From Lentisphaerota bacterium (GTDB lineage Bacteria; Verrucomicrobiota; Lentisphaeria; Victivallales; Victivallaceae), in the NCBI GenBank assembly GCA_015061525.1, contig SUWK01000004.1:1-64000 (forward strand): a stretch of 64,000 nucleotides of DNA. Reading direction: 5' to 3'. A program made the translations under genes and the position numbers. Numbering within the stretch: the first letter of the stretch is position 1; each line of letters opens with the position of its first letter. The notes beneath the pieces were generated by a model. The model was not told where the DNA came from and did not search any database. It saw only the letters and a program-made list of their open reading frames with translations. Below, piece by piece: positions 15,353 to 64,000 of the stretch.

Positions 15353-18031
15353 TTACTTCCCGGGGCGCAGATGATCGAGATAACGGCCGATGCGGAAGGT
15401 ACGGACGATAAAAGGATTCTGCCGGGTGATATCACGGATGGATTCGATGAATTTTTTCTGCTTGGCTTTGTAGTCGGCAGAGTCACGATCTTTGGCGAGA
15501 TAAAGTTCGCGGTGCATCATGCCGAGGGTCATGCCATGCTGGAGAAATTCGACGCGGGCAAGCGATTCGGGATCATCTTTGACCAGAGCTTTGGCACGAT
15601 CAAGACAATCCTGCAGCTCTTTGGCGCGGGCATCGGTGACCAGATCAAAGAGTTTGCCGCGTTTAATTGCCTGTTCATCGGAGATTTTTTCAAGCAGCAG
15701 ATGATATTTTTTGATTTCGGGAGCGGCTTTGCCGAAACCGGATTTGCAGAAATCGTCGAAGATGGTTTCAAAATCGACCTTTTCATAGTTGAGCTGTGCT
15801 TTGGCGGCGGCGTAGTAGGTGAAGCCTTTGAATGCCCAGATACCTTCAAAGCAGTCGATATCGTTGCCGACGAGATTGTTGGCTTTCATAAGTTCGATAT
15901 CGTTGAACATCTTGCGTCCGAAGTTCTGCGGCATCAGGTGGTTGCGATAGCCCCAGAACGCGTTGGGGCGCCACAGAAGCGGGTTGCCGAAACGGCTCCA
16001 GGCGGCGATGGTTTTCAAACCTTTCTGACGGCCGTCTTCATTGGTGTAGTTGCACGCCACACTGAAAAGGATAAGCGACGGATGCGGTTTCAGCTTGACC
16101 GGACGGTCGGCGTAAGCGGAATAAGCGTAGAAGCAGAATTGCTTGCCGGGAACCTCTTTGAGGATCTCTTCCACGACCTGATTGGTGAAGTGGAGGACAC
16201 GGTCGCTCAAGGCGACATATTTGATCTTTTTGCGAACCGGGACGAAAACAGACATTTCGATCGGCATGGAGTTCACGGGATCAAGTTTGCGGCACTCTTC
16301 ACACAGACAGAAACTGGTATAACCGCCGTCGTTGAAGCAGAGAGAAACGGCTTCTTTGTAAGGATATTTTTTGAAGATGGCGATTTTCTCTTTGGCGATG
16401 ACCTTGGGCAGATCTTTATTGGAGTGGCACAAGCGGGGACGTTCGCCCTGTTTGCGGGAACCGTCCGGCTGAACGGCGAAGTATTCCGGATGCTTTTTCC
16501 CGTAATCTTTGTACAAATGACCGTAAGCGTGTCCCCAGTCCAGAATACGCTCTTCTTTGGGCGGTTTCCAACCGAGACGTTTTTCATCATCGTTGAAGCC
16601 GTGCCAGTGGAGATATTCGCGGTTGAATGGAGCATCTTTGCCGTATTTCTGCTCAAGAGCGAGCAATTCCTCCGCTGAAATACCGAAAATACCGCCGGTA
16701 GCAGCATAGTTGCCCTGCAAAAGGGTAAAAGAACGGGTGGAACGCGCCATGTAGAGCTTGGCGGTTTCATTGATATCGATTTCAGGAGCGATGATCACAC
16801 TCTTTTTGGGAATGACCTTGCCGGAAACTCCCGGCCAGAGATAGCGGATGCCCATGGATTCAAGGAACAAACTCAAAGCGTGGGAAGCACCTTTGACCGG
16901 ACCGCCGACAAAAAGGTGGTTGCCTTTGCGTTTGATAACTACCGTATCGCGGGAAGAGTGGGCAGGTTTGAGACCGAATTTTTCAGCGGCGGCACCATCA
17001 CCGATGATGACCGCATTCTGTTTGGCATCGGGATATTTATCCACGATTTTAAAATCTTTACCGCTCATTTTATCGAGGTGATATTTGAGTTCCAATGCGA
17101 GATTTTTGATCTCCTGATTGTCAGTTGCCGGATAGATGACCGCCATGGTCTTGCTGTCACACAGAACCAAGCCCGGTTTGTACTTGGGGAAACCGGAACG
17201 CAAAGCCGGTTTGTTTTTAAAGGAGTCTTCCAGTTTGAGATTGCCTGGTGCGCCGAGCGGTTTATCGCCCCAACTGCTGAGTTTTGAATTGACTTCCACC
17301 TCTTTGACACTGTTCAAAGCCTTAAAATACAACTCTTTAAGGACTTCAACAGCGTTGCCTTCCGGGGTGAAGATAAAGTTGCCGACATCATCGGGATAAC
17401 CGAGAGATTTTTTGTTTTTATTGAAATAGGATTTCAGACGCATCAGCGAGGGGGATATCCACCAGACCTGTCCTTTGCCGACGGAATAGCGTGTAGCGGC
17501 GGCAATTTTTTTACCATCCGGCATGACATACCATGCCAGAACTTCAGTTTTGGGATCGAGCTTGGAGGCACCGCCGCCCATGCCGAGCTGCCAATCCGGA
17601 AGAATATTGGTACTGCTGCCAACAGTCACACCTTTAGCTTTGTCGACATTGACAAATTCGCTGAATCCGAATATCTGCGAACCGGATTTGGAAAATTCTT
17701 TTTTCCCCATCATATCCAGCGGGATATAGCAGTTGACGATCAATGTGCCGCCGTCATTGAGATACGCCATCAATTGTTCGCGGCTTTCCGGCGTAATGAG
17801 CAGCGGTTTGATCTTCTCATATTTGATCAGATTTCCGATGTAGACGGCGCTGAAATTTTTATATTCAGCTATTGGAACCGTACCGACTTTGCACACCCAC
17901 GGATTTTTGGAACAAACGTCAGCCAACATAACTTTGGTATCATACTTGTAACCGCCGACCGACAACGGGCGCGGAGCTGCAGCCAGAATCATTCCGGCAA
18001 ATACAGCCATCAGCAAACTTGACCTTTTCAT
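15353..18031 (-). CDS. Secreted DUF4838-family (GH67/GH20-like fold) protein, large form
   Basis: Signal peptide MKRSSLLMAVFAGMILAAAP; paralogous to 18829-21483 and 48145-50910; CLCEECRKLDPVN motif. Confidence 0.8.
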   Translation of the reverse strand: MKRSSLLMAVFAGMILAAAPRPLSVGGYKYDTKVMLADVCSKNPWVCKVGTVPIAEYKNFSAVYIGNLIKYEKIKPLLITPESREQLMAYLNDGGTLIVNCYIPLDMMGKKEFSKSGSQIFGFSEFVNVDKAKGVTVGSSTNILPDWQLGMGGGASKLDPKTEVLAWYVMPDGKKIAAATRYSVGKGQVWWISPSLMRLKSYFNKNKKSLGYPDDVGNFIFTPEGNAVEVLKELYFKALNSVKEVEVNSKLSSWGDKPLGAPGNLKLEDSFKNKPALRSGFPKYKPGLVLCDSKTMAVIYPATDNQEIKNLALELKYHLDKMSGKDFKIVDKYPDAKQNAVIIGDGAAAEKFGLKPAHSSRDTVVIKRKGNHLFVGGPVKGASHALSLFLESMGIRYLWPGVSGKVIPKKSVIIAPEIDINETAKLYMARSTRSFTLLQGNYAATGGIFGISAEELLALEQKYGKDAPFNREYLHWHGFNDDEKRLGWKPPKEERILDWGHAYGHLYKDYGKKHPEYFAVQPDGSRKQGERPRLCHSNKDLPKVIAKEKIAIFKKYPYKEAVSLCFNDGGYTSFCLCEECRKLDPVNSMPIEMSVFVPVRKKIKYVALSDRVLHFTNQVVEEILKEVPGKQFCFYAYSAYADRPVKLKPHPSLILFSVACNYTNEDGRQKGLKTIAAWSRFGNPLLWRPNAFWGYRNHLMPQNFGRKMFNDIELMKANNLVGNDIDCFEGIWAFKGFTYYAAAKAQLNYEKVDFETIFDDFCKSGFGKAAPEIKKYHLLLEKISDEQAIKRGKLFDLVTDARAKELQDCLDRAKALVKDDPESLARVEFLQHGMTLGMMHRELYLAKDRDSADYKAKQKKFIESIRDITRQNPFIVRTFRIGRYLDHLRPGK

Positions 18032-18050
18032 AAATCATTCTCCCTTTTAG

Positions 18051-18799
18051 TTAATTCACTGCCGGGTCATTCGCCCGCCAGAAATAATGAAATTTTTTCT
18101 TTGTCGCGTTATCTTTGGAATTACGGTCTTCCGCCACTGGAATATCCCGTACCCTGATCGTCCCGATATGTCCATCCAAATATGCTATATTTGCCGTTTT
18201 ATTGTGACGGAATCCGACAGTTGTGGTAAATTCGCTGGTGTTGATTCGGGTGACAGTTCCTGATTTCGGGTTCGGAGAATCCAATCCGGCGGCTTCGGTT
18301 ATCAGCGGCGCCTGGCTCGGCCGTTTGAATTTATTGGCTTTGTTGGCATCCGTCAGCGCCCCATAATAGTAAAAGAACCTTGACCATGCAATATGACTGT
18401 CGGATGATGTTCCAAACAGCCTGCCGGGGCAACCGGAAAAAACCAGATTGGTTTTGGAATAGTTGTAGTTGGAATAACGTGAAACCAACTGGTAATAGTA
18501 TTTATACGGATAAGGCATGGAGTCTCTTTTTATCCACGGCAAATAGTCGTTGAAATCACTGATATAAAACAAATGCAGTTGAGTGAACTGTTTCATATTA
18601 CTGCCGCAACTTGCCGCCCTGCCGCGGTTGCGGGCGTTCTGCAAAGCGGGAAGCAGAATTGCTGCCAGAATTGCGATGATGGCGATGACCACAAGCAGTT
18701 CAATAAGAGTAAAGCGGTACGCTTTACTCCCGCCATGGCGGGAGTAAAGCGGTACGCTTTACTCCCGCCATGGCGGGGAGTTTCAGAAATATTTTTCAT
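18051..18799 (-). pseudogene. Type IV pseudopilin-like protein (prepilin-type H-X9-DG class); start codon out of frame because of a 35-bp tandem duplication
   Basis: ATG at 18799 ([19 protein letters not shown]) is joined to [24 protein letters not shown] only if one of the two exact 35-bp units (18708-18742, 18743-18777) is removed; C-terminal [12 protein letters not shown]. Confidence 0.75.
18708..18777. repeat. Exact tandem duplication of a 35-bp unit made of two hairpins
   Basis: agtaaagcggtacgctttactcccgccatggcggg repeated twice without mismatch. Confidence 0.95.
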
Positions 18800-18828: not shown

Positions 18829-21483
18829 TTATCTCAAATACGGACTGTAAAAACCGATTTTTTCCGGATTGACTGCTGCCGGATCAGTGAGCGCATATTC
18901 CCGGATGATACGGATGAATTCTTTGCGTAAAGCGGGAAATTCCGGAGAATTGTTTTTCTTGGCGAAGTGAAGTTTACGGCAGACTTTGCCGACATTCAGA
19001 CCTTTTTCCAGAAAGTTGATGCGGGTGATGACTTCATCATCGCCTTTGGCAAGATCACGTGCCTTATCCAGCAGTTTCCCGAGGGAAACAAGATCATTTT
19101 CAGAAACAAGTTCGATGTAATGGGTATTGGTTTCAGCGGCTTTGTTGAAAAGCGTCTCCAGTAAATTGAAATACTCTTTTACCGCAGGAGCGGCGGCATT
19201 GAAGCCTTTTTCGCAAAAATCATTGAAAATGGTATCGTAATCAACGCCCGCATAGTTCCATTGCGCCTTGCCGAATGCGTAATAAACCAGAGTCTTGCAT
19301 GCCCACTGCATTTCAAAGTCATCGAGGTCGTCACCGATGATATTGTTGGCTTTAAAGAGTTCAAGGTCGTTGAAAAGTTTTCTGGCAAAGTTCTGCGGTA
19401 TCACCACATCCCGGAAACCGGAGAGTGCATTGGGGCGCCACAGCATCGGATTGCCGAAGTGGGTCCAGGCGGCAACGGTTTTCAACGCTTTCTGCCGGTA
19501 GGCTTCGCTGGTGTATCTGCCGGCAACGCTGAAAAGAATAAGCGACGGATGCGGTTTGACTTTGACCGGCGGTTTTTCGTATTCAGCATAGGCATACAAG
19601 GTAAACTTTTTTCCGGGAACCTCTTTTAAAACGCCTTCAGCGATGCGGTTGCTGAAAGTCAGCACCCGGTCGGCAAATGAGACATATTCGATACGTTTGC
19701 GCACCGGGGCAAAAACCAGCATGGATGCCTTATGCGCATTGACCGGGTCAAGTTTGCGGCAGTTTGAACACATGCACATACTGGAGTGACCACCGTCATT
19801 CAGACAGAGCGAAACCGCCTTTTTTTCCGGATAAGCCTTGAACTGCGCCACCTTTTCAGCGACGATGAGTTTTACCAGTTCTTCATTGGAGTGGCACAGC
19901 CGGGGCCGGGCGGGCTGCTTGCGGCTGCCGTCGGGCTGCAGAGCAAAACATTGCGGATATTTTTTACCGTAAACTTTAAAGAGGTGGTTGAATGCATGTC
20001 CCCATTCATAGATTTTTTTGGTTTTATGATCATATCCGAAACGGCGGGGATCTTCATTGACACCGTGCCACTGGAAATAGCCCCGGTTGTATTTACCGTC
20101 ACGGGAATATTTCGCCCATATCTTTTCCATTTCTTCGGAAGTGAAGCCGAACTTCTTGATCGATCCCGCCCAGCGGTCACGGAAACCGTTGTCACGAACC
20201 GAACGGACCATATAGAATTTGGCAACATGATTTATATCCATTTCCGGAGCAATGATCTCTTTTTTGCGGGGAATAACCTTGCCGCTCACCCCCGGCCAGA
20301 GGTAGCGGCAGCCGAGAACTTCGAGGAAAACGGTCACCGCCTGCGAAATACCGCAGCTGATGCCGCCGACAAAAAGGTGATTGCCTTTGCGGCGGATCAT
20401 GATGGTGTCGCGGTCGGGAACAGAAATTTTAAAACCGAATTTTGCGGCGGCAGTTTCCGGACCGCCGAGGATGACCGCTTTCTGACTTGCATCGGGATAC
20501 GCGGTGACGATCTTGAAATCTTTACCGCTCATTTTGTCCAGATGAAACTTCACTTCCCGTGCCAGAGCTCCGGTCTCCTTTCCGGCGGAATAAATGACCG
20601 CCTGACCTTTGCTGTCGCACAGCACAAGTCCCGGCTTGTACTCCGGGAAACCGGAACGCAGAATCGGTTTGTTTTCAAAAGTGTCGTTGAGTTTCATATT
20701 TCCCGGTGCGCCGAGCGGCTTGGTTCCCCAATCCTGTGCGCTTTTATTGACGGAGATACCGGAAGCACTGTTGAATGCCCGGTTGTAGATGCCTTCCAGA
20801 GACTCCACCGCTTCACCGGCGCGGGAGGCGATAAAGTTGCCCTGATCATCCGGCACCCCGAGACTGATTTTCCTTTTGCTGTAATATTCTTTGAGACGGT
20901 TCAACGGAACGCTGATCCACCAGAGCTGCCCTTTACCGAACTTTTTGCGAACGACCGCAGGAAGAGTTTTGCCGTTTTCCAGAACGAAAGATGCCAGGAC
21001 TTCAGCTTCCGGAGCAAGCCGGTTTGCCGCGACAGAACCGCCGTGCTGCCAGTCATAAAGCTCTTTACCATCCCCAAGTTTCACTCCGGAGATCTTATCT
21101 TTGCAGGAAAAAGTCTCCTTGAAACCGAAAAGTTTCACCATCTCTTTGCGGTTCTTTTTATTCAGCAGACTGCGGGGCATGTCTCCGCTGGTGATGATGA
21201 TACCGCCGTCATTGAGGTAATCCAGAACATTTTTACGGGCGGCAGGAGTATTCCACATGACTTCTTCCGGAGCTTTTTTAAGCTGTTCACCCAGAAAAAC
21301 CGCGCTGTATTTCTTGTAATCACAGGTTTCCGGAGTTACCGATTCGCCGATCCAGCAGTTTTTGTTGACGATCTCCCCCATGATGCGGCGCGATTCATAG
21401 CGGTAACCGCCGACAGCGACCGGACGGGCGGCAAAGAGCACCGCCGCACAACAGCACAGAATAAATCCGGACAAACGTTTCAT
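18829..21483 (-). CDS. Secreted DUF4838-family protein, large form
   Basis: MKRLSGFILCCCAAVLFAARP signal peptide with SD GAGGAAG; end-to-end similarity with the 15353 gene product. Confidence 0.8.
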   Translation of the reverse strand: MKRLSGFILCCCAAVLFAARPVAVGGYRYESRRIMGEIVNKNCWIGESVTPETCDYKKYSAVFLGEQLKKAPEEVMWNTPAARKNVLDYLNDGGIIITSGDMPRSLLNKKNRKEMVKLFGFKETFSCKDKISGVKLGDGKELYDWQHGGSVAANRLAPEAEVLASFVLENGKTLPAVVRKKFGKGQLWWISVPLNRLKEYYSKRKISLGVPDDQGNFIASRAGEAVESLEGIYNRAFNSASGISVNKSAQDWGTKPLGAPGNMKLNDTFENKPILRSGFPEYKPGLVLCDSKGQAVIYSAGKETGALAREVKFHLDKMSGKDFKIVTAYPDASQKAVILGGPETAAAKFGFKISVPDRDTIMIRRKGNHLFVGGISCGISQAVTVFLEVLGCRYLWPGVSGKVIPRKKEIIAPEMDINHVAKFYMVRSVRDNGFRDRWAGSIKKFGFTSEEMEKIWAKYSRDGKYNRGYFQWHGVNEDPRRFGYDHKTKKIYEWGHAFNHLFKVYGKKYPQCFALQPDGSRKQPARPRLCHSNEELVKLIVAEKVAQFKAYPEKKAVSLCLNDGGHSSMCMCSNCRKLDPVNAHKASMLVFAPVRKRIEYVSFADRVLTFSNRIAEGVLKEVPGKKFTLYAYAEYEKPPVKVKPHPSLILFSVAGRYTSEAYRQKALKTVAAWTHFGNPMLWRPNALSGFRDVVIPQNFARKLFNDLELFKANNIIGDDLDDFEMQWACKTLVYYAFGKAQWNYAGVDYDTIFNDFCEKGFNAAAPAVKEYFNLLETLFNKAAETNTHYIELVSENDLVSLGKLLDKARDLAKGDDEVITRINFLEKGLNVGKVCRKLHFAKKNNSPEFPALRKEFIRIIREYALTDPAAVNPEKIGFYSPYLR

Positions 21484-21571
21484 TTTCTTCCTCCATGTAA
21501 AAGTTGCAATAATAATGATGATGACAGAACTTCGGAACATCCATTAATATAAAGCAACTGTTTATTCTTCC

Positions 21572-21611
21572 ATGTTCAAAATGCGCAATAATTTGCTTAA
21601 AATGCTCAAAA
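21572..21611. promoter_or_regulatory. Putative AraC-type operator (21-bp direct-repeat period)
   Basis: atgttcaaaatgcgcaataatttgcttaaaatgctcaaaa, matches 62601-62640 at 33 of 40 positions. Confidence 0.55.
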
Positions 21612-33513: not shown

Positions 33514-33651
33514 ATGGCTGTATTAATTTATATTCTCATTGCGTTGGCAGTTTTTCTCATTGCCAGAGAGCTTTGGTGCTGGTATTGGAAAATAAATGCC
33601 GTACTGGAAAAACTTGACGAAATCTCACAAAAACTCGACAAAATAAAGTAA
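33514..33651 (+). CDS. 45-aa single-TM small protein
   Basis: MAVLIYILIALAVFLIARELWCWYWKINAVLEKLDEISQKLDKIK with SD aaaggag; below the ORF track size cut-off. Confidence 0.7.
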   Translation: MAVLIYILIALAVFLIARELWCWYWKINAVLEKLDEISQKLDKIK

Positions 33652-51039: not shown

Positions 51040-51927
51040 ATGAATAAAAAAATTCTTTTGTTTTTTATATTTTCCTTTACCGCAATAATGCTCAACGCCG
51101 GAAATAAAGAGTGCTCGACCTGTGGCAGATCCGGCAATCTCCGCATCTTTTTCGGGAAAGAATTTTTTTGTTCAAAAAAATGTATCCCGGAAAAATTCTA
51201 TTGTTCGATCTGCGGTGAACTTCCTAAAGGCAAATACCATTATTTTACCGATCTCAACGGCAGAACACACCATTACTGTCACCCCTGCTTTCAAAACAAT
51301 CCCCGCTGTTCCGCCTGCAACCGTCCGCATGAAAGCAATTCCGCAAACAGTATCTGCCAAGACTGTAAAAATGGAATGATAACCTACAATAAAGCGTGGA
51401 GCATAATGCAGAAACTGCGCCGGGAACTCGCAGCTGACTACGGTTATGATGCAAAGCACAAAATCTCGTTGAAACTGGTCGATAAAAACACAATGGTACG
51501 CACCAGCGGTTCAAAATCCGCAATCGGCTACACCCAATATAAGATCCGTTACAAAACTCACAAAAACAAGCGGGGTGCCACCCGGACAACCGATATCCGG
51601 CATGAATGCAATATCTTTTTACTCAAAACCCTCAATGAGAAAAAAGCTCACGCAGTTCTGGTTCACGAACTCACCCACGACTATCTGTTTCACCATCTGG
51701 GCAAACCTGTCAACAGCAAAGTCAATGAAGGTATCTGTGAAGCAATGGCAGGAGCATGGCTGATGAAACACGGAGAAACAGAGCTTTTTGAACAGATGAA
51801 AAAAAATCCCGACCCTACTTACGGGGCGGGATTCAGATCACTTTATCCGCAACTTCAGCGTTACGGATTCAAAAACATGCTTGAACGCAACAGAAATGCG
51901 TTCAAGCCGTTCATCAGAAAACGTTAG
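51040..51927 (+). CDS. Secreted DA1-like zinc metallopeptidase with LIM-like zinc-finger region
   Basis: Signal peptide MNKKILLFFIFSFTAIMLNAG; CxxC/HHYCHPC/CxxC clusters; VLVHELTHDYLFHHLGKPVNSKVNEGICEAMAGAWL resembles the DA1 peptidase core. Confidence 0.75.
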   Translation: MNKKILLFFIFSFTAIMLNAGNKECSTCGRSGNLRIFFGKEFFCSKKCIPEKFYCSICGELPKGKYHYFTDLNGRTHHYCHPCFQNNPRCSACNRPHESNSANSICQDCKNGMITYNKAWSIMQKLRRELAADYGYDAKHKISLKLVDKNTMVRTSGSKSAIGYTQYKIRYKTHKNKRGATRTTDIRHECNIFLLKTLNEKKAHAVLVHELTHDYLFHHLGKPVNSKVNEGICEAMAGAWLMKHGETELFEQMKKNPDPTYGAGFRSLYPQLQRYGFKNMLERNRNAFKPFIRKR

Positions 51928-53123
51928 CAGCTCACCAATTTCTGGGTGGTCTTGGCGATCATCAGCTCTTCATCGGTCGGCATGACGATAGCTTTGATTT
52001 TGCTGTCGGCACTTGAAATAACACCGGCTTTGCCGCGGAAAGTGTTGTTGGCTTCTTCGTCGAGGTAAATACCCAACGGAGCAAGCTGTTCAACGACCAT
52101 CTTGCGGATCTCATTGGAAAATTCACCGATACCGCCGGTGAAAACGACCGCCTGGACTTTACCGGCAACCATGAAATAGGAACCGATGTATTTCACGATG
52201 CGGCGGACGAACATCTTGACTGCCAATTTGGCGCGTTCATTGCCGGAATCAGCAGCCGCGAGCATATCGCGCATATCACCGGTACCGATACCGCCGACAC
52301 CGAAAAGACCGGACTTCTTGTTGAGGATGGTATCGACTTCCGCCGGAGTGGAACCGAGGTCGATCATACGGACGACCGCTGCCGGATCGATGTCACCGGA
52401 ACGGGTTCCCATCATCAGACCTTCAAGCGGGGTCAAGCCCATAGTGGTATCGACAACTTTACCGCCTTTGATCGCCGCCATGGAGCAGCCGTTGCCGAGG
52501 TGGCAGGTGATGATATCGGTGTTTTCGACATCCTGATTGAGGAACTTGGCAGCGGCAAGGGTCACATAGTGGTGGCTGGTGCCGTGGAAACCGTATTTAC
52601 GGATGCCGTATTTTTCATAGTATTCATAAGGAATGGCGTAGAGGTAGGCTTCCGGAGCCATGGTCTGGTGGAACTGGGTATCGAAAACGCCGACATTGGG
52701 CACTCCGGGCATCGCCTTTTCGCAGGCTTCGATACCGGCGAGGTTGGCGGGGTTGTGGAGCGGTCCGAGGGGAAAGCATTCGCGGACGATGGCTTTGACC
52801 TTTTCATCGACGATAACGGGGGCGGTGATCTTTTCGCCGCCGTGAAGGACACGGTGACCGATGGCGCTGATTTCAGAAAGGGATTTGATGACACCGATTT
52901 CGGGATCGACCAGCTTTTTGCAGATTTCTGTAAACGCTTCGACGTGATCTTTGACCGGAATCTCCTGCTCGAACTTGAAGCCGTCCGGGCGCTTGAAAAT
53001 AAGGTTGGGCCCGATGGTGCCGAGACGTTCAAAAACACCCTTGGCAAGAACGGTTTCGTTTTCCATCGAATAAAGCGTGAACTTCATCGAACTGCTACCG
53101 GCATTGATAACCAGAATCTTCAT
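51924..53123 (-). CDS. ackA: Acetate kinase
   Basis: MKILVINAGSSSMKFTLYS, RVLHGGEKI, FDTQFHQTM, YGFHGTSHHYV, VFTGGIGE. Confidence 0.97.
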   Translation of the reverse strand: MKILVINAGSSSMKFTLYSMENETVLAKGVFERLGTIGPNLIFKRPDGFKFEQEIPVKDHVEAFTEICKKLVDPEIGVIKSLSEISAIGHRVLHGGEKITAPVIVDEKVKAIVRECFPLGPLHNPANLAGIEACEKAMPGVPNVGVFDTQFHQTMAPEAYLYAIPYEYYEKYGIRKYGFHGTSHHYVTLAAAKFLNQDVENTDIITCHLGNGCSMAAIKGGKVVDTTMGLTPLEGLMMGTRSGDIDPAAVVRMIDLGSTPAEVDTILNKKSGLFGVGGIGTGDMRDMLAAADSGNERAKLAVKMFVRRIVKYIGSYFMVAGKVQAVVFTGGIGEFSNEIRKMVVEQLAPLGIYLDEEANNTFRGKAGVISSADSKIKAIVMPTDEELMIAKTTQKLVSC

Positions 53124-53214
53124 AATAACTCCTTTTTCTGTAAGACCATTTTTGTGTTCAGAAATAATCTTATAATATAACACAAAAACAACACTTTGTC
53201 AAGGTTATACTGCT

Positions 53215-54708
53215 TCAAAATTCCTGAATCGGATGGACTCCCGGAGTCAACTGATACTGACACCAGCCGGTCTTGATATATTCACCGGCCTCCATATCCC
53301 AATCGACCTGCCGGGTATGCTGCGCCAGAGCCAGCCGGTTGGAAAGAGTATCTTCCGGAAGTGTTTCCGGATTCCAGGCAGCAGCGGCGGCGGCGCAGTG
53401 AATGGCAGTTTCCCTGCGGTCATGGAAGATATGCCAGGTGGTTTCAAGCATACCGGCAAGTTTTCTTTCTGCCGCCATTTTCCCCTGTCTCACGATGCCC
53501 TGCCAGTTGAGCCACGGGCAGACCAGCACATCAAAATTTTCCTGTTTGAAAAATTTTGCCACCGGCCAGTCGGGATCGGCATCTTCCGGAAGTGTTTCCG
53601 GATCGCGGTACTGCCAGTCGGCAATTATGATGTCGCGGGGAAGTTCTCTGTACAACTCACCGAGCTGATGTTCCGGCAGACCGCAGGCGGTATAGCCTTT
53701 CCAGCGGGGATCACCTTTGGTAATAAGCATGTCGTGCCACATGATGAGCCGCGTATTGCGTTGGGCAAGGAGATCATGGAAATAACAGATGTGTTCTTTG
53801 ACCAGAGATTTCAACTCTTTACGCCGGCAGTCCCGGCAGGTGGCGATATTGTCCGCCTCATCGCAACCGATATGGAAGAACGGCGGACCGTCGAAAAATT
53901 CACAGAGTTCCAACACCAGACCGGTCAAAACTTTGCGGGTTTCCGGATTGGTAAGGCACCAGCTCCACCCCTCCGGTTCAAAAAGCGGCTGAAGTTTCGG
54001 CTCATAACTCAACACCGCGTGTTTGCCGGTGATGGAACGGCTCGCTGAAGCATGTCCGAGCAAATTCAATTGCGGGACAAGGGTTATTCCCAGTTCTTTT
54101 CCCAGAGTGATCAGACGTTTCAAGGCGGCTTTGTCCAATTGTTTATCTTTCCAGACAAATTCCGGATGGCTTTCAAAGGGAAAAACGCCCCACGGCTCTA
54201 TGACCGCATAATTGAATTTGTGATATGCGGCAATGCGGAGCTGTTTTTCAATATCCCAGAGCGGAGTTTCCGGAAAAATGCACAGATGGATACCCCGGAA
54301 CGCGAGTGCCGGAAAATCATCGATATCACATTGGACAAGGAAATACCCGGAAACTCTCTCTGTTCCGCGCTGAACTTCCGCCAGCTGCCGGAGCGTTTTC
54401 ATGGCATTGAGCAGTGCAGTCTTGCCGTTGGCAGAGATTTCCAGAATATTTTCTGAAATATTGATTTTATAACTTTCGTCACAATTCAGCGTTTCCGGGA
54501 GAGTTTCAAGGCGGATCTCCGGCACGCTCTGCCAGTATGCAGAAAAAAGTTTCCCGGCAAGAGCGGCACAATTTTCGGCATCGCGCGGCAGCTTGAGAGT
54601 AACCATGCAATTGTCGCAGATAAGAAATTCATTCCCGTCCCGGAATTCAATTTTCTGCGGCCGGGGGATCAGCCGGTCGGTAAGGATTTTTATTTCACGA
54701 TCCGTCAT
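53215..54708 (-). CDS. GH20-family beta-N-acetylhexosaminidase-like protein
   Basis: FPALAFRGIHLCIFP, PQLNLLGHA, FFHIGCDEADN (H-x-G-x-D-E). Confidence 0.8.
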   Translation of the reverse strand: MTDREIKILTDRLIPRPQKIEFRDGNEFLICDNCMVTLKLPRDAENCAALAGKLFSAYWQSVPEIRLETLPETLNCDESYKINISENILEISANGKTALLNAMKTLRQLAEVQRGTERVSGYFLVQCDIDDFPALAFRGIHLCIFPETPLWDIEKQLRIAAYHKFNYAVIEPWGVFPFESHPEFVWKDKQLDKAALKRLITLGKELGITLVPQLNLLGHASASRSITGKHAVLSYEPKLQPLFEPEGWSWCLTNPETRKVLTGLVLELCEFFDGPPFFHIGCDEADNIATCRDCRRKELKSLVKEHICYFHDLLAQRNTRLIMWHDMLITKGDPRWKGYTACGLPEHQLGELYRELPRDIIIADWQYRDPETLPEDADPDWPVAKFFKQENFDVLVCPWLNWQGIVRQGKMAAERKLAGMLETTWHIFHDRRETAIHCAAAAAAWNPETLPEDTLSNRLALAQHTRQVDWDMEAGEYIKTGWCQYQLTPGVHPIQEF

Positions 54709-54717
54709 AACGGCACC

Positions 54718-55794
54718 TCATATTTTTACAGTTGAACCGCTTTTGATACTTTCATAACAAGCATTCATGCAGGCGATGGTTTCGCGATGCCACTTCAAAT
54801 TTATTTTCGGCTGCTTATGATTGCGGATGCAATCGACAAATTCATCAATGAGTCCGATCCATTCATCGAAGTAGGTATACTGAACGGTATAACGGTCATT
54901 GGGTGCGCCGTTGTGATAGACATTGGGACCGAAGCAATCGCACTGGATCATACCTTTTTCGCCGGTGATGGTGACATTGACCTCCATGCGTTTTGGGAAG
55001 CGTTCCCATCCGGGGCCCGGCACTTTGAGCCGCTCTTCAAGGCGTGACCATGAAGGGTCAAAAAGGAATGCGGTACCATCTTTCATCTTTCCGGCTGCGA
55101 GCACCATGTCTTCCACTTCCAGCTCTTTGCGGAGATTCGGGGCGGCCTGGGCGAAAACTGAATCAAAACTTGAACCGGTCAGCCAGCGGATCAAGTCAAA
55201 GATGTGCGGATGGTCACACAATGCCCCTCCCCGGAAACGGTGATCGTCACCAGACAATGGCACGCGCTTGCCGTAACTTGCCTCCGGACTGCCCTGCCAC
55301 GGGAATGCCCAGACCGGAGAGAGAGTGATATTGGTCGCCTGGATCGAAAGCAGTTTGCCAAGCGCGCCTTCAGAAATCAGCTTCTGCAGCCGTTTCACCA
55401 CCGGATTGTAGTGCATTTCAAGTTCGATCTGGCAGACGATACCGGCCTTATCGACCATATCGATCATGGCATCATACTCATCCATATCGAATGAGGGTAT
55501 TTTCATGGAAAGAATATGGATACCGCGTTTGGCACAGAATTCCATATCCTTATAGTGCTGATCATTGGCAGAAGCGATGACGATGGCTTCTATGTCCGGG
55601 TGTTCGGCGATCATTTTCTCCGGATCGGGATAACATGGAACTCCGGTATTGTATAACTCATAAACCTTTTGAGCATCTTCATCCTGCGCGCAGGAGGCGA
55701 CCCAATCCAGTTTCTGATTTTCGAGCAGAGTCTGATAATATTTTCTGGTATGCCCGTGGGTCATGCCCATCATGGCGATTTTTACCGGTTCCAT
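54718..55794 (-). CDS. Gfo/Idh/MocA family oxidoreductase
   Basis: VKIAMMGMTHGHTRKYYQTLLENQ...CAKRGIHILSMKIPSFDM; GALCDHPHIFDLIRWLTG. Confidence 0.88.
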   Translation of the reverse strand: MEPVKIAMMGMTHGHTRKYYQTLLENQKLDWVASCAQDEDAQKVYELYNTGVPCYPDPEKMIAEHPDIEAIVIASANDQHYKDMEFCAKRGIHILSMKIPSFDMDEYDAMIDMVDKAGIVCQIELEMHYNPVVKRLQKLISEGALGKLLSIQATNITLSPVWAFPWQGSPEASYGKRVPLSGDDHRFRGGALCDHPHIFDLIRWLTGSSFDSVFAQAAPNLRKELEVEDMVLAAGKMKDGTAFLFDPSWSRLEERLKVPGPGWERFPKRMEVNVTITGEKGMIQCDCFGPNVYHNGAPNDRYTVQYTYFDEWIGLIDEFVDCIRNHKQPKINLKWHRETIACMNACYESIKSGSTVKI

Positions 55795-55796
55795 CT

Positions 55797-56516
55797 TTAA
55801 AATCCTCCTTCCACATTGACAGGGAGATTGTTTGAAATACTTTCAAGCGCACAGTCAGCCAGTTTTACCGAACGGCGCGCCGCAGCGCTCCAGAGTTCCG
55901 GCAGCGAAGCATCTTTCAAAACTGCGTAAGCGGCACGGACGATCCAGATCGCATCGTCCGGCAAACCGAAAAGTTCGGTATCGACATCGGTGAAAGTGGT
56001 TTCTCCGTCCGTATTCCACAAATAAATGGAGTGCTGCGGAACTTGAGTATCCACTCCGCGGTCACATCCGACTCCGCGGCGGGCGATGATCTCGTGCCGG
56101 TCAACGTTTTTGGTATTGACCGGCAGATTAATTCCGCATTCGATACTGGCACTGATACCGTTGGCAAAACGGACGATACAGTTGCAGACCTTTTTACCGT
56201 CGCCGCCGGCGAAAATGCGGACGACCGGAGAATCAGCGAGATATTCGGCGAGATCAAGTTCGGCAGCCAGAAGTTTTTTCAGATCACCGCCGGCAGTGAA
56301 TTTGGCAAAACGCAAAGTTGAAACCTCTTCCAAAGTTGCGGAATCGATCATCTTTTTAAGTTCGATGATACGCCGTTCCACGCGGTGCGGAAGCAAAGGG
56401 AATGTTCCGGAAGTTGTTTCAACACAGAAGTAATCGCTTCCGGCAACGACAGTTCCGGCGGGAAAACCGTATTTGTCCCGCAGAAACTCCAGAGATTCAT
56501 TCATTCGGGTAATCAT
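55797..56516 (-). CDS. Uncharacterised protein resembling the C-terminal half of a Gfo/Idh/MocA oxidoreductase
   Basis: C-terminus WIVRAAYAVLKDASLPELWSAAARRSVKLADCALESISNNLPVNVEG; no N-terminal Rossmann GxGxxG. Confidence 0.55.
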   Translation of the reverse strand: MITRMNESLEFLRDKYGFPAGTVVAGSDYFCVETTSGTFPLLPHRVERRIIELKKMIDSATLEEVSTLRFAKFTAGGDLKKLLAAELDLAEYLADSPVVRIFAGGDGKKVCNCIVRFANGISASIECGINLPVNTKNVDRHEIIARRGVGCDRGVDTQVPQHSIYLWNTDGETTFTDVDTELFGLPDDAIWIVRAAYAVLKDASLPELWSAAARRSVKLADCALESISNNLPVNVEGGF

Positions 56517-56517
56517 T

Positions 56518-57276
56518 TCAAAGACTCTTGATCAGGGGTTTATATTTCTTGAGATAAGCGGCATTCTTTTCGTCACCGCCGGGTGCGTTGGCACTGTTCC
56601 AGACCGGCGGAGTGATGCCGCGTTCGACACACTGACGGACCGTTTCTATTTCCAGCAAGTGGGCGATGGTGAAGTCCACCACATTGGAAACCGGTGCGAT
56701 GGGAGTGTCAAATCCCGGCACATTGACTATGGCATCTCCGACCGGATTGTAATCGTCGATGCACACGTCGGCAAAGTCAAAAAGGTTTTTACCGGAAGAA
56801 TGGCGGATGAAATGGTCGGCAGGCATCTCGTTCTGCCAGTAACTGCTGGCGACGGCGATGATTTTGCCGCCCCGTTTTTTGATTTCCATAGCGGCATCGA
56901 TGGTGGCGGGATTGATGCCGATGTTGTGAAAGATTATGACCAGATCATCCGGTTTGATATCATAATATTTGATGATGGAGGCGCCGAAGTTTTCCGTGCG
57001 TTCCAGTTCCAAATATTTGAGAGCCTGATTGAAAACCGAAAGTGCAGTTTCCATCAGCGGATCGATATTGGCAAGACCTCCGGCGCGGAAGAACATCTCG
57101 CCCATTGCAAGCGTGGTATGTCCACCGCCGGCATAGATGTGGATAAGTTTATCTTCCGCGATGGCATCCGCCATAAGTTTGGCGGCACGTTGGATATTTT
57201 CCGCCTGATTGTCCAGTACCTGCTGAATATTGGCAAACGCTTTTGCCACATATCCGAAATCATTTAATTTTGCCAT
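56518..57276 (-). CDS. SIS-domain sugar isomerase-like protein
   Basis: LIHIYAGGGHTTLAMGEMFFRAGGLANIDP...DLVIIFHNIGINPATIDAAMEIKKRGGKIIAVAS. Confidence 0.85.
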   Translation of the reverse strand: MAKLNDFGYVAKAFANIQQVLDNQAENIQRAAKLMADAIAEDKLIHIYAGGGHTTLAMGEMFFRAGGLANIDPLMETALSVFNQALKYLELERTENFGASIIKYYDIKPDDLVIIFHNIGINPATIDAAMEIKKRGGKIIAVASSYWQNEMPADHFIRHSSGKNLFDFADVCIDDYNPVGDAIVNVPGFDTPIAPVSNVVDFTIAHLLEIETVRQCVERGITPPVWNSANAPGGDEKNAAYLKKYKPLIKSL

Positions 57277-57307
57277 TTATCATTCTCCTTGTTTGAAGTT
57301 TTATTTA

Positions 57308-59110
57308 TTATGCCGGGACATTTGAATCAAGTGCGTGTTTGCAGCAGTTTTGGGCAAATTTTGCCAAACGGTCAGCTGCGGCAGCACCGTCAAGCAATGC
57401 CGTATTATCATTAAAAAGCTGAATGATTTTTTGTTCAAGTTCGTATTGCAGATGGTAATCCTGTCTGCGCCTGGCAGTTTCCGCACCGGATGCCAGCACT
57501 GTATATTCGATCCAGAGCCGCAAACGGGCGATGTTTTTTTCCGGAAGCTGAAGATTCAACGCATCAAATTCATCAAGCAGTTTTTTTGAAAAATCCCGTA
57601 CCCCATGGTCCAGATCTGAAGTGATCCGATCGATCAATCCGGCGGCAACTCCCAGCATCACAGCACTTTGGGCAGATATAAGCTGATTTATATCACATTC
57701 CGGATCCCACAGAACCCGGCTGTGAAAACTGTACAATCTGCCGTCGGGCCAAAAGGCAGGGTAGGGACAGGAACAGTCATAGTATACCTGCATACCGTCA
57801 GCGATAAAGCGGCGCAATTCGTCGGCAACCAGTTCCGGCGCCGGATAACGCAGATAGCGGCTGCGGTCGATGCCCTCTTTGTAATCTGTAAACAGCAGCT
57901 GATAATAAGCAAAAATATTGGCGGAACTGTTGCGGGATCTCATTGCTTTGATCCAATCATTCCACAGCGGACCGTATTCGCGGTCATCGACTGGACATAC
58001 CGGGTCGGCTTCGGGATAATTTTTGCCCAGACCGTTTTTTACCGGTTCCAGACCGCTGTCGTAAAAGCGGTGATGATAGTGGCGCAGATAGGGACAGAAA
58101 ATGGTGTAGGTGCGGGAAAGATCTGCCATTTCCTGCGGCAGAGTCAGAAGCGAACAGTATGCCAGAAGTTCCAGATAGACCGGACGCGGAGAAAGTTTCA
58201 GCACTGCATCCGCCAGTCTCCGAACCTGATCAAAGGGGGTGATTTTTTTACATTCCGGGCATTGGCACCAGTTGTTTACTCCGTCGTGCGGCCAGAGCGC
58301 AAAAACCTTGATTTCCGGATGTTTTCCGATGTATTCCGCAATATTTTTTGCGATATAGTTTACCGCTTCCGGGTTGGAGAAGCAGGGCTGCAGCGGACCT
58401 TGAGAAAATTTATTCGGCATATCAGGCATGGAAATTTTGCTGCTCAGCCGTCTTTCTCCGTAGCGCATACCGAAATATTCCGGATGGGTTTCAAACAGTG
58501 ATTCTGCGATAAAGTTGTTCATCGCGTGGCCGCCGATATTGAGTTCAACGGCGCACAGATGTGCCAATTCGATCAATTCTTCGCAGTTTTCAGCTCCCTC
58601 CCACCGCCAGACGTGGATCATGGTGCAATTCCATTGATTGCGCGCCATCCAGCGGAGCATTTTGATAAAAAACGGTCTTTCGGTATCAGGGTAAAGTCCA
58701 TTCATCCCGCGGAATGCGACCTTGGGCATTGAAGCGGCACTTTCCGGGACGATGGGACCGAAACTGATTTCATCATCGTTTACATTGTTCCATTGAACTC
58801 CGGTCGTTTGGCGCAGCCAGGAATAAAAACCGTAAAGCACCCCGGGGTAACCGCCGCCGGAAATAAGGATTTTACCATCACAGTTTTCAATGGTGTAACT
58901 TTGGGCTTTGCGGAAATCTTCGGCGTATTCGGCAAAACTCCGTTCATCCGGGAGCAGGGGTGATGACGCATTGCTGTGCAGGATCAAACCGGTTTCAATG
59001 AACTGTATATTATGTTTTGCTGCCGCTTGAAGCACCAGAGCGAGTTCAGCGTTTATAAAGTTTGTTTCTGCTGCGGTGAGGTTTGATTGTATGATTTTTA
59101 CAATGCTCAT
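57308..59110 (-). CDS. DUF4838-family protein, apparently cytoplasmic
   Basis: GVLYGFYSWLRQTTGVQW, FETHPEYFGMRYGERRL, ALWPHDGVNNWCQCPECKK; no obvious signal peptide. Confidence 0.75.
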   Translation of the reverse strand: MSIVKIIQSNLTAAETNFINAELALVLQAAAKHNIQFIETGLILHSNASSPLLPDERSFAEYAEDFRKAQSYTIENCDGKILISGGGYPGVLYGFYSWLRQTTGVQWNNVNDDEISFGPIVPESAASMPKVAFRGMNGLYPDTERPFFIKMLRWMARNQWNCTMIHVWRWEGAENCEELIELAHLCAVELNIGGHAMNNFIAESLFETHPEYFGMRYGERRLSSKISMPDMPNKFSQGPLQPCFSNPEAVNYIAKNIAEYIGKHPEIKVFALWPHDGVNNWCQCPECKKITPFDQVRRLADAVLKLSPRPVYLELLAYCSLLTLPQEMADLSRTYTIFCPYLRHYHHRFYDSGLEPVKNGLGKNYPEADPVCPVDDREYGPLWNDWIKAMRSRNSSANIFAYYQLLFTDYKEGIDRSRYLRYPAPELVADELRRFIADGMQVYYDCSCPYPAFWPDGRLYSFHSRVLWDPECDINQLISAQSAVMLGVAAGLIDRITSDLDHGVRDFSKKLLDEFDALNLQLPEKNIARLRLWIEYTVLASGAETARRRQDYHLQYELEQKIIQLFNDNTALLDGAAAADRLAKFAQNCCKHALDSNVPA

Positions 59111-59125
59111 TTTTTTGTCCTGATC

Positions 59126-61471
59126 TCATTGTTTGAATTGTGCGGTCAACTTATCAGCTGCTTCTGAAGCAAGCTTGTCATATTGAATAAACACTTCACT
59201 GATTTCTGCCAGAGCTTCCAGCGTTTCGGGAAGTTTTTGCTCATACGCGGCGTGGTCGATCACGGTGAGCGGGGTTTTGTAAAATTTATCCTGAACGGCG
59301 GTATGTTTCGCCTTGATGTCGGGGAGAGTTTTGAAGTCGATCGCAGTTCTGTCATCCGTTTCAAGGTGCATTACAAACGGAGCAAAAATAAAATAGAATT
59401 CATCGATACACAGCGGCATCAATTCATAGATATAACTGCGGCAATAGGCGTTTTCAGCATTGGCTTTGAGTGTTTTTTCAAAATCCGGGTTACATTCGTA
59501 TTTGCTTTGCAGATCGCATAATGAATCATAAAGCGAATAGTCGCTGCTTACTCCCAGTACACGCTGCAGCTGTGTATAAAGTTCTCTTATCAGCTGGAGC
59601 GATTTTAAGACTTTTGCAGCAGCAACTTCTCCCCGGCACCACCGGTTGTAATCGACCGTAAAACGGCAGTATGCGCCGGTGTGCAGACGCCCCGCCGTTG
59701 AACGGATTATATCGAGCAGGTCGCGCCGGACAAAATTATCAGCTTTGCCGAAGTCAACTTTGGCGATTGTACGGAAAAGTTCCGGCATAGCGGCAAATTC
59801 AGAAACGTGATCATCAACAAACTTTTTTTGAACTTCCAGCTGATCTTCTGTTGTGTTGCCGAGAATGCCGCAATAAGCATATTCAAAGGGGCGCAAATGG
59901 ATTTCGCCGCTCAAAGATTTGCGGGTGAAGCCGCGCATTTTGATCATCGGCTGGAATTTCTGCCAGATTTCCAGCATTGCCGGCAGATCTTTTTTGCCGT
60001 ATCTGTCAGCGGCAAATTTGGGCAGAAAAGCGGCAAGTTCCCGGTTTTCTCTGACTGGATTCCAGGAGTTTGCGCCCAGATATTCCAGCATAAGCGTATC
60101 GGAGTGCGAACACTCCGGCCAGAGTATCATTCCCTGACACATTTTGTCATTGGCGGCAGTTTCCAAACGTTCGGCGATGATGTCATAAAAGCCGCGAATA
60201 TCATTGCTCGGTTCATAGGCGTGAAAAATGCCGAATATCCACGGAAATTTACCGATAACGTCCCAGTTGGTAAAATTGTTTACTTCATCATCGGTTTCAG
60301 ATGTGTAGTCAAGGATTATGGTGTTGCGCGGATCCAATTCTTTGAACAGCGAACGCACCTCTTCCGGTTTCCACAGCAGCCAGAAATCCCACGAAGCCAG
60401 CAGCAGCGGTGCATCGGGATATTTTTCCCTCAGTTTATTGATCAATCTCCGGTAGGTATAGAGTTTCAGCTGATGGTTGGCATCGCGGTCAGAGAAGCAG
60501 TTGCGTTCACCCAGCCCGATGGTGTGAAATATCTTTGCTTCGCCGTATTCCCGGATATGGGTTTCGGTCAGATGAAAATAGTTATCCAGATTTTTTTCCT
60601 GCCGTATATCCCAGACCAGTCCGGTAGGTTCACTGTAAGCTCTGGTCGCCTGCGGCAAAAAATCCGGCTTGACTGCTTCAAGAAAATCTTTTGGCGTCCG
60701 GCTGTACCAGTGAGTCATCGTACCGAAATCTTCAGGGTGGAGCAAACCGCGTTCTCTGCCGTAAGCAAGTATCGCTTTGCGCAGTTCGCCGCGGTGCTGC
60801 AGACTCCAGAAGAGATCGCGGTCATCGTAGGAACGTTCCCGGGATTCCGGGACTTTGTATTCGGGATATTTGGCAAATTCCGGAAATGCCTTTTGAAACA
60901 GATCATCCATCCCGATACGGAGCATATACAAATTGAACCGTTTTTTCAGGCACCAGTCCAGTTCCCGCTTCCACTCTTCCAAATTCCAGTGTTCCGCTTG
61001 AAAACGGTTCAAGCTGCGGTGGGCAAAGTAACGCAGACCGCGATAGTGAAAACGGGGCGTTTCAGCAATATTCCAGTCGGCAAGCGAAATCTCCTGTCCG
61101 GCGGGGATGCGGTCGCCGTCCCAGAAGTAGCGGCAGCCCTGCAGTTCAAAAAAATGGTATACCGCATAGAAATATGCCCGCTTGCAGCCGGCGGCAAAAA
61201 AGAGCAGATTTCTGCCGTTTCCCCGCACTGAAACGATTTTGTAACTATCGCTTCCGGTAACAATATTCAACTCCGGCAGGGTGCCGTCAAGAATTTTGTC
61301 GTGAGTATAGCTGTTAACTGCATCTGATCCCAGAATGACCATATCTTCGCCGGCTGCCGGGACGGCAGTGATAACTGCTTTGCTGCCGGTGATTTGTTCA
61401 TAATATTTTTTGAACTCCTGCGCCGGCAGCTGAAAAAAGTCATTCGCGTCTGCAATCAGAATTCTCAACAT
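59126..61471 (-). CDS. Putative glycoside hydrolase (GH89/GH67-like alpha-N-acetylglucosaminidase-type fold)
   Basis: YHFFELQGCRYFWDGDRIP, FHYRGLRYFAHRSLNRFQAEHWNLEEWKRELDWCLKKRFNLYML, then a GH89-like barrel; assignment tentative. Confidence 0.5.
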   Translation of the reverse strand: MLRILIADANDFFQLPAQEFKKYYEQITGSKAVITAVPAAGEDMVILGSDAVNSYTHDKILDGTLPELNIVTGSDSYKIVSVRGNGRNLLFFAAGCKRAYFYAVYHFFELQGCRYFWDGDRIPAGQEISLADWNIAETPRFHYRGLRYFAHRSLNRFQAEHWNLEEWKRELDWCLKKRFNLYMLRIGMDDLFQKAFPEFAKYPEYKVPESRERSYDDRDLFWSLQHRGELRKAILAYGRERGLLHPEDFGTMTHWYSRTPKDFLEAVKPDFLPQATRAYSEPTGLVWDIRQEKNLDNYFHLTETHIREYGEAKIFHTIGLGERNCFSDRDANHQLKLYTYRRLINKLREKYPDAPLLLASWDFWLLWKPEEVRSLFKELDPRNTIILDYTSETDDEVNNFTNWDVIGKFPWIFGIFHAYEPSNDIRGFYDIIAERLETAANDKMCQGMILWPECSHSDTLMLEYLGANSWNPVRENRELAAFLPKFAADRYGKKDLPAMLEIWQKFQPMIKMRGFTRKSLSGEIHLRPFEYAYCGILGNTTEDQLEVQKKFVDDHVSEFAAMPELFRTIAKVDFGKADNFVRRDLLDIIRSTAGRLHTGAYCRFTVDYNRWCRGEVAAAKVLKSLQLIRELYTQLQRVLGVSSDYSLYDSLCDLQSKYECNPDFEKTLKANAENAYCRSYIYELMPLCIDEFYFIFAPFVMHLETDDRTAIDFKTLPDIKAKHTAVQDKFYKTPLTVIDHAAYEQKLPETLEALAEISEVFIQYDKLASEAADKLTAQFKQ

Positions 61472-61492: not shown

Positions 61493-62530
61493 TTACTTTT
61501 TGAGAACGCGTTTGTAATTTTCGCCGATGGTATCCCACAATTTCAAGGCATCAGGAGCACCGACAACGGTTCCGTAACCGCCGCGATAGGTCCAGGCGGC
61601 GATGCGGTCGACTCCGGCTTTTTCAGCGATATCCACCCATTTGCTGATCTGTTCCCATTCCTTGGGCTGCTTGTAGTATCCCATGAACCAGCGTTCCGCT
61701 TTTTTGCCGTATTTACGGGCGACGGCGACCGTGCGTTCGGTGATATCCCGGAAGAAATCCTCCGGCAGTGCCCAGTTGACGATGGTGGTCGAAAATACGT
61801 CAAAATATGGACAGCCTGCCACCATATCCCAGTTGTCGTAGCCGCGGTATTCGGAAACATAATATCCGTTCTGCGTAGCGTGAACACAACAGGTTATTTC
61901 CAGTTCCGGCTTCAGCTCTTTGAGAGCTTTGGAAGTTTCACTCAACACCACCAATGCTTCCCGCCAGCGGAAAAGTTTCACATCGTTGGTCATATAACGC
62001 GGCATGGGATAACCGTAGTAATCTTCAAAGCGCTTGCGGCAGACCGGGCAGTAACAGGTCCAATCATCCGCCACCCCGCCGGTGATTGAAGCAATGCCCT
62101 TGGGGAATGCGTAGTGCGGTTCATCCCAGAAGAAACCATCGGCATCGGTTTCCCGGGCCAGCGTGAGGCAGAAGTTTTTGAAGTAATCGCGGTAACTGTT
62201 GGTGTTGAAACAGGCGTAGGGAAGTTTTTCGCCGGTAAGTGCGGAAACCTGACGGTTCTCCACATTGTCCTGCAGAAACTTTGAAACTTGTTCACCGCCG
62301 AAGTATTTACCATTGCCCCAGGGATCAATGATGACTTTCAAACCGAGTTCGTGCGCTTTGTCCACGATTTTGGGAATATTGGGACGCCAGAAGTCAAAAT
62401 CAAATTCTGTGACCGCCAGAATAACGGCACTGCAGCCGTGGGAGATCATCTCTTTGAAATCAGTTTCGGCATGTTCCACATAGTTCAAGCCGTAGTAACT
62501 GACCGCAGTTTGGGTAATAGCCATAGACAT
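61493..62530 (-). CDS. Putative TIM-barrel glycosidase-like protein
   Basis: VIIDPWGNGKYFGG, DADGFFWDEPHYAFPKG, CYCPVCRKRFEDYYG; start MSMAITQ with SD agaaagg. Confidence 0.6.
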   Translation of the reverse strand: MSMAITQTAVSYYGLNYVEHAETDFKEMISHGCSAVILAVTEFDFDFWRPNIPKIVDKAHELGLKVIIDPWGNGKYFGGEQVSKFLQDNVENRQVSALTGEKLPYACFNTNSYRDYFKNFCLTLARETDADGFFWDEPHYAFPKGIASITGGVADDWTCYCPVCRKRFEDYYGYPMPRYMTNDVKLFRWREALVVLSETSKALKELKPELEITCCVHATQNGYYVSEYRGYDNWDMVAGCPYFDVFSTTIVNWALPEDFFRDITERTVAVARKYGKKAERWFMGYYKQPKEWEQISKWVDIAEKAGVDRIAAWTYRGGYGTVVGAPDALKLWDTIGENYKRVLKK

Positions 62531-62600
62531 TTTCCTTTCTGTATTGATTGATCGAAGTTGCTTCCATGTTTTTAATATAAGACGTTTTTTAAACTTTGCC

Positions 62601-62640
62601 ATGATGAAAATGAGCTAAAATTTGTTCAAAATGCTCAAAA
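62601..62640. promoter_or_regulatory. Putative AraC-type operator (21-bp direct-repeat period)
   Basis: atgatgaaaatgagctaaaatttgttcaaaatgctcaaaa in the divergent region next to the araC gene; matched at 21572-21611. Confidence 0.6.
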
Positions 62641-62739
62641 AACGGATTATATTGAAAAAAAATACGTTTTTTTATGAATAAAGCAACTTGCAATATTTTC
62701 TCTGACCGTCTATATTAAAACCGTCAGGAGAACAAAAGC

Positions 62740-63579
62740 ATGAATATCGATCAAATCCGCGAAAATGCAAAAAAGCTGAAGGAACCGGATAATCTTTACA
62801 AAGGATTGACATTGGCGGAAGATTTTGAACTTCCGGACAATATTCTGCTTTTTTATCACGACTTCTGCGCCGCCGCACCGAACGCCCACAACCGTTACAC
62901 GATGGTCTTTCCACTGGCAAAAATGCACTATTTTGTGGACAATCAGGAATATGATATCGATTCCGGAGATTTACTTTTCATCCCGCCCTACTCCCTGCGT
63001 TTTCTGTCTGCTCAATCCAGTGGGTATCAACGTCTGTTCATTACATTTCAACTTAAAAGGCCGCAAAGTTACCTGCCGGAAAAATGTCTGAATAAACTCT
63101 CGGATGCCGCGATGGGCTTTCTGCAGAAAATATTTGACAACTTCAACTCCGGCAACGCTCCGGAACTGGCACTGAACCTCTGGGGTTTTCTGACCAATCT
63201 TGCTCCGGGCAGACAATCCGGTCAGGCTTCAACATTAAGCCCGGAGATCGCACGCGCGGTGGCTTTCATCATCGACAATCTGCATACTGCGCCGGATACT
63301 CCGTCAATTGCAGCCAAAGTCAATATGAGCGTCAGCAATCTCCGCCGCCGTTTTCATAAGGAAACCGGAGTGTCCATACATCATTATATTTCGCAGCAGC
63401 GTCTGGATTTTGCCCGCTGCTACCTGCAAAAAAGTTTTATGAGGATCGAAGAGATCGCCGGTAGATGCGGTTTTCTCTCCGCCTCAAGTTTCAGCCATTT
63501 TTTTATTACCAACACAGGGATGTCTCCTCTGAACTACCGGAAAAATTTTCAGATAAACCACAAAGATGATTCCGATTAA
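62740..63579 (+). CDS. AraC-family transcriptional regulator
   Basis: SIAAKVNMSVSNLRRRFHKETGVSIHHYISQQRLDFARCYL...IAGRCGFLSASSFSHFFITNTGMSPLNYRKNF. Confidence 0.92.
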   Translation: MNIDQIRENAKKLKEPDNLYKGLTLAEDFELPDNILLFYHDFCAAAPNAHNRYTMVFPLAKMHYFVDNQEYDIDSGDLLFIPPYSLRFLSAQSSGYQRLFITFQLKRPQSYLPEKCLNKLSDAAMGFLQKIFDNFNSGNAPELALNLWGFLTNLAPGRQSGQASTLSPEIARAVAFIIDNLHTAPDTPSIAAKVNMSVSNLRRRFHKETGVSIHHYISQQRLDFARCYLQKSFMRIEEIAGRCGFLSASSFSHFFITNTGMSPLNYRKNFQINHKDDSD

Positions 63580-63645: not shown

Positions 63646-64000
63646 ATGAAAAAATTTTTGTTTACATTATCTCTTGTCTTCTGCGGATATCTTCTTTCAG
63701 CAGCTCCGATGTTTCAGAATCAACAATCGTCATGGCAGATCATAATACCGCAAAAAGCAGATTCAACTCTTAACTTTGCGGCGCAGGAATTGCAGGAGCA
63801 TCTGTATAAGATCTCCGGAGCAAAACTTGCCATCAAACGTTCCAAAACTATTCCGGACTCCGGAGCGATCGTGATCGCAACACCGGAATATTTCAAACTT
63901 CCCGGCGATACCGGTAATTTTCCTTCCGGCAGAAACGGCAATGACTCCCTGCGGGTGAAAACAGCAAACGGCAATCTCTACCTCACCGGAAACGTCTCCC
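63646..64000 (+). CDS. Secreted GH67-N/DUF4838-like protein, 5' part only
   Basis: Manual translation: MKKFLFTLSLVFCGYLLSAAPMFQNQQSSWQIIIPQKADSTLNFAAQELQEHLYKISGAKLAIKRSKTIPDSGAIVIATPEYF...; open at window end, so absent from the ORF track. Confidence 0.75.
   Translation, partial: MKKFLFTLSLVFCGYLLSAAPMFQNQQSSWQIIIPQKADSTLNFAAQELQEHLYKISGAKLAIKRSKTIPDSGAIVIATPEYFKLPGDTGNFPSGRNGNDSLRVKTANGNLYLTGNVS

Follow-up and report, generated by a model that had tools for sequence, protein, structure and literature searches.

Organization of the two loci

The window, the whole 64,000-nt stretch of Lentisphaerota DNA that we analysed, carries a gene for a 279-amino-acid (aa) AraC-type regulator (62740-63579, plus strand) with a predicted β-rich (cupin-like) N-terminal domain and a C-terminal double helix-turn-helix (HTH). 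Divergent from it lies a glycan operon on the minus strand, in which, together with its continuation, the NAGLU, DUF4838, SIS, Gfo/Idh/MocA, GH20 and acetokinase genes were annotated by Pfam. The first operon gene, whose start codon may be at 62530 or at 62524 (the position favoured by relatives), encodes a TIM-barrel glycoside-hydrolase-like protein of 343 aa without a Pfam family (61496-62524), followed by a NAGLU-like (GH89-type) gene (59129-61471) and by genes for a DUF4838 protein, an SIS sugar isomerase, a 239-aa protein, a Gfo/Idh/MocA protein and a GH20 protein (53218-59110); an acetate/propionate kinase gene (51927-53183; Pfam acetokinase) comes after the operon. Between the regulator gene and the operon lies a 40-bp sequence with two half-sites at a 21-bp period, putative operator 1 (62601-62640), which reads on the plus strand, opposite to its target operon. 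A TATATT −10 box of the operon (62574-62579, minus strand) lies 21 bp from the operator's ATG, and its −35 hexamer, a poor match (ATGGCA), coincides with the edge of the operator. The regulator gene has a probable promoter of its own, TTGCAA-17-TATATT (62688-62716, plus strand), separate from operator 1. A gene for a 977-aa DUF4838-like protein begins at 63647 on the same strand, 67 nt downstream of the regulator gene, with which it may be co-transcribed.

The second locus centres on a gene for an 884-aa DUF4838 protein (18832-21483, minus strand), the N terminus of which, MKRLSGFILCCCAAVLFAA, looks by eye like a signal peptide. Putative operator 2 (21572-21611, plus strand) lies upstream of this gene, again with two half-sites at a 21-bp period, and a TATATT −10 box (21546-21551, minus strand) stands 20 bp from the operator's ATG, preceded by a poor −35 hexamer (CATGGA or ATGGAA). 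A prepilin-like gene (18054-18692) and a second DUF4838 gene, whose product is 52% identical to the 884-aa protein, occupy 15356-18692 on the minus strand and, judging from gene order and spacing, are a possible continuation of the second target operon. The leader-coding part of the prepilin-like gene contains, at 18707-18778 and just before a motif of 15-residue type, a tandem repeat of an approximately 35-bp unit, CCCGCCATGGCGGGAGTAAAGCGTACCGCTTTACT, which has two internal palindromes and occurs nowhere else in the genome; the length before that motif also varies in the prepilin-like genes of relatives.

The 343-aa protein, which matched no Pfam family above cutoff, is 87-93% identical in those genus relatives that have it and 90-92% identical in some members of another family of the order, against 37-55% identity for the regulator homologues. 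It contains a conserved DGFFWDEPHY motif, and its structural model is a TIM barrel like those of GH-A enzymes (mean pLDDT 78), which makes it a candidate for an unclassified glycoside-hydrolase-like family.

Two matching 40-bp sites

Gapless alignment of 62601-62640 with 21572-21611 gave 33 identities in 40 positions. Both sites contain two AAAATG half-sites exactly 21 bp apart (at 62607 and 62628 in operator 1, at 21578 and 21599 in operator 2), and their 13-bp end, AAAATGCTCAAAA, is identical. A preliminary description of this DNA had reported the alignment, the paired half-sites, the identical second half and similar distances to the start codons (about 71 and 89 nt), and our recount agreed with it on every one of these. 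From the composition of the two sites, the probability of at least 33 matches in 40 is 5e-11 per pair, and about 0.004 such pairs would be expected by chance between two 6-kb sets of AT-rich intergenic DNA on two strands; in 100,000 shuffles, 40-mers matched at 12.7 positions on average and at 27 at most. Setting aside a match to the same site shifted by one repeat, the next best match to either 40-mer in the window is 26/40. One 26/40 match, just upstream of a DUF4838 gene at 48145, was rejected: it runs in the opposite orientation to the real sites and lacks the repeat.

The pattern AAAATG-N15-AAAATG occurs in the window only at operators 1 and 2. A scan of the 2.83-Mb assembly that allowed up to 3 mismatches returned both operators with 0 mismatches and two other sites with 3, which does not exceed the two matches obtained with the control, the pattern read backwards; the genome scan for similar sites that the preliminary description had called for thus left only the two window sites as close matches. 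With an assembly that is about 90% complete, additional operator sites may have been missed. The flanks of the two sites are only 24-37% identical, which argues against a recent segmental copy.

Conservation at promoters of relatives

Genomes of the same genus and order contain orthologues of the regulator, at 48-60% identity, as well as homologues that are more distant. Its nearest named homologues in the genome_contigs collection are from Lentisphaeria metagenome-assembled genomes (MAGs), mostly of ruminant gut, and are largely the same loci as those of the genus search; two apparently non-gut MAGs appear among the more distant ones. The 21-bp direct repeat recurs at promoters linked to the regulator homologues. 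In a self-match test run without any consensus over 16 regions, offset 21 had the highest summed score of all offsets from 10 to 42 (187, followed by 166; mean 154), a signal of the pooled regions, several of which are individually non-significant and some of which (G010, G024, G041, G050 and others) have no strong repeat standing alone. In one genome (G011) araC and the 343-aa gene share a strand, with araC upstream, instead of being divergent, and the operator is still at the target promoter, which indicates that it serves the target and not the regulator gene; in these sequences, the predicted operator goes with the target promoter rather than with araC. In G012, G027 and G010 the regulator stands divergent to a gene for a protein of 806-813 aa that has no confident Pfam assignment (L039:7436-9853, L041:4992-7430).

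We searched with two operator models. Model R1, trained on eight sites including both window sites, matched only these two in the window's genome (E = 7e-9 and 1e-8; next 0.125). Among sequences on which it had not been trained, it found an operator at the promoter of a NAGLU orthologue in G012 (E = 0.009), G027 (E = 0.009) and G013 (E = 0.002). The gene behind the match in G027 and G012 is a 47%-identical orthologue of the NAGLU gene of the window operon, and in all three genomes the NAGLU orthologue lies on a contig other than that of the regulator locus, yet the operator is present. Model R2 was built from the operators of relatives with both window sites left out, and its top two matches in the window's genome were 21571-21611 (E = 1.1e-6) and 62601-62641 (E = 4.6e-5; next 0.27); it is not wholly independent of R1, because the NAGLU sites of G012 and G013, first found with R1, are among those it was built from. 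In eight genus relatives taken as background R2 gave no comparable match (best E = 0.03); three of them (G001, G020 and G011) have more distant homologues with diverged operators that both models miss.

Several other cases were examined. G013 has the NAGLU operator and no regulator orthologue in its assembly, but contig C185 breaks off at base 33611, within a gene whose orthologues in G012 and G027 are divergent from the regulator; the G013 regulator would therefore lie just past the contig end, and G013 was dropped as a counter-example. Weak model matches in G016, G017 and G006 fall within coding sequence and are apparently due to chance. The 884-aa DUF4838 gene has homologues in two genomes only, at 37-38% identity; in the one homologue examined, that of G031, coding sequence lies just upstream and no operator is found there.

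Promoter layout and direction of control

All 16 promoters compared, of which two belong to a paralogous regulator, have a TATATT-like −10 box at 20-22 bp from the ATG of the operator; for each promoter we took the best hexamer among 12 positions, preferring 21 bp when hexamers tied, and in 12 of the 16 it is exactly TATATT. At this distance the operator extends into the −35 region. Its place there, the fixed distance to the −10 box and the poor −35 make up a layout that, judged from sequence, is the geometry of a class II AraC/XylS activator. It is this promoter geometry that suggests activation as the direction of control.

An operator overlapping the −35 region could also let the bound 62740 regulator exclude polymerase, so that it would repress both loci until a sugar releases it. 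We regard repression as unlikely. Both target −35 hexamers are poor (ATGGCA, and CATGGA or ATGGAA), as expected of activator-dependent promoters, compared with TTGCAA at the regulator's own promoter and TTGAAA at the neighbouring 21810 promoter, and the spacing equals that used in activation by AggR, an AraC/XylS activator that acts 21-22 bp upstream of the −10 box, over the −35 region (PMC6392122).

The regulator and its paralogues

The 62740 protein matches Pfam HTH_18 (E = 2e-21) and has the C-terminal double HTH of the AraC/XylS family; its predicted DNA-binding domain aligns with those of AdpA, AraC and MarA at 1.3-1.9 Å. The N-terminal domain gave no Pfam cupin match, and its β-rich model resembles the regulatory domains of AraC, BgaR and RhaR. 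The relative placement of the domains is uncertain in this model, the overall pTM of which is only 0.63.

The window's genome holds 35 AraC-type matches (E ≤ 0.001), and paralogues in the lineage use related 21-bp repeats, so one of them, rather than the 62740 regulator, might read the site at 21572. The comparison of operators makes this improbable: operator 2 agrees with the native operator of 62740 at 33/40 positions and with that of the nearest paralogue (G000:C63, about 37% identical), which has a repeat of its own in different letters, at 22/40. It is also closer to the 62740 operator than to any of 11 others compared, although that of G007 is near (32/40), and models R1 and R2 match no other promoter in the genome. 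Another possibility, that the similarity arose by chance among AT-rich promoters or that a functionless segment was copied, is favoured by the AT-rich half-sites and by the fair number of half-site-like sequences that stand alone (5 in the window, 2.0 expected), but the full sites are unique in the genome, their flanks are unrelated and a model built from relatives finds both, which leaves it barely credible.

A similar repeat, resembling an operator, is found at the start of a different AraC paralogue, which is 25% identical to the 62740 regulator and divergent from a prepilin-like gene (L186:5094-5134 in G031:C49, and G003:C66:11346-11386). The model matches on these two contigs were rejected as operators of the 62740 type, since they lie at the promoter of this other paralogue, with a similar layout.

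Many AraC regulators of the lineage may keep one promoter grammar, in which a direct repeat of 21 bp precedes a TATATT box by 20-22 bp and the half-site letters drift from paralogue to paralogue; we put this forward tentatively, as a proposal a little short of even chances. If this grammar were general, sequence alone would suffice to link each AraC regulator with its scattered targets, and a recognition code for the AraC family would be exposed.

Discussion

The 40-bp sequence is very probably the operator of the 62740 regulator, from which it would activate, in the class II manner, both the glycan operon (62524 to 53218) and the DUF4838 gene at 21483. The preliminary description had proposed an AraC-type operator with a two-turn direct repeat, through which the 62740 regulator controls both loci. 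These proposals gain support, at the level of sequence, from the recurrence of the 21-bp repeat at promoters linked to regulator homologues, from the ranking of both sites first by model R2 and from the constant promoter geometry, and further from the lack of any other similar site in the genome despite its 35 AraC-type matches and from the different operator of the nearest paralogue.

From the computed sites, their geometry, their conservation and their uniqueness in the genome, we infer binding, dimerization, activation over repression, and the ligand. A regulator dimer would occupy the two half-sites, two helical turns apart, and a sugar in the N-terminal domain would presumably switch it. 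The half-site nearer the gene would reach the −35 region; each promoter combines a good −10 box with a poor −35, which is consistent with recruitment of RNA polymerase by the bound regulator. The same activation would operate at the glycan operon and at the DUF4838 gene, so a product of the glycan could induce a probably exported DUF4838 protein and the intracellular enzymes together.

This arrangement has counterparts in known systems. As in E. coli AraC, the regulator has a predicted N-terminal regulatory and a C-terminal double-HTH domain, its gene stands divergent beside a sugar operon, and its half-sites form a direct repeat, as at araI1-I2. The half-sites of araI1-I2 are spaced 21 bp apart. 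Unlike the E. coli system, there are two separate target loci here, and neither a second, distant loop site nor an operator at the regulator's own promoter was found. XylS at Pm and MekR at PmekA likewise use two direct-repeat half-sites upstream of or over the −35, with a 21-bp period when the published letters are counted (PMC4514859). Those operators are read by a dimer, as would probably be the case here; by contrast, the letters of the half-sites differ, ours being TTGAACA- and GAGC-like on the target sense strand, and the effector here is probably a glycan product. At AggR-dependent promoters the site also overlaps the −35, 21-22 bp upstream of the −10 box compared with 20-22 bp here, but AggR acts from a single site and not from two half-sites (PMC6392122).

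A literature search found no paper on an AraC-family regulon of gut Lentisphaeria; the regulator-operator pair and its regulon are new as far as these searches go, and their kind is well known. The analysis gives a predicted regulator-operator pair and two-locus regulon in an uncultured gut Lentisphaeria bacterium. An operon of NAGLU/GH20 type that also encodes unclassified enzymes would thereby be linked to a DUF4838 protein that is probably exported, which hints at what the DUF4838 domain does. The fixed layout could help to pair further AraC regulators in this lineage with the genes they control.
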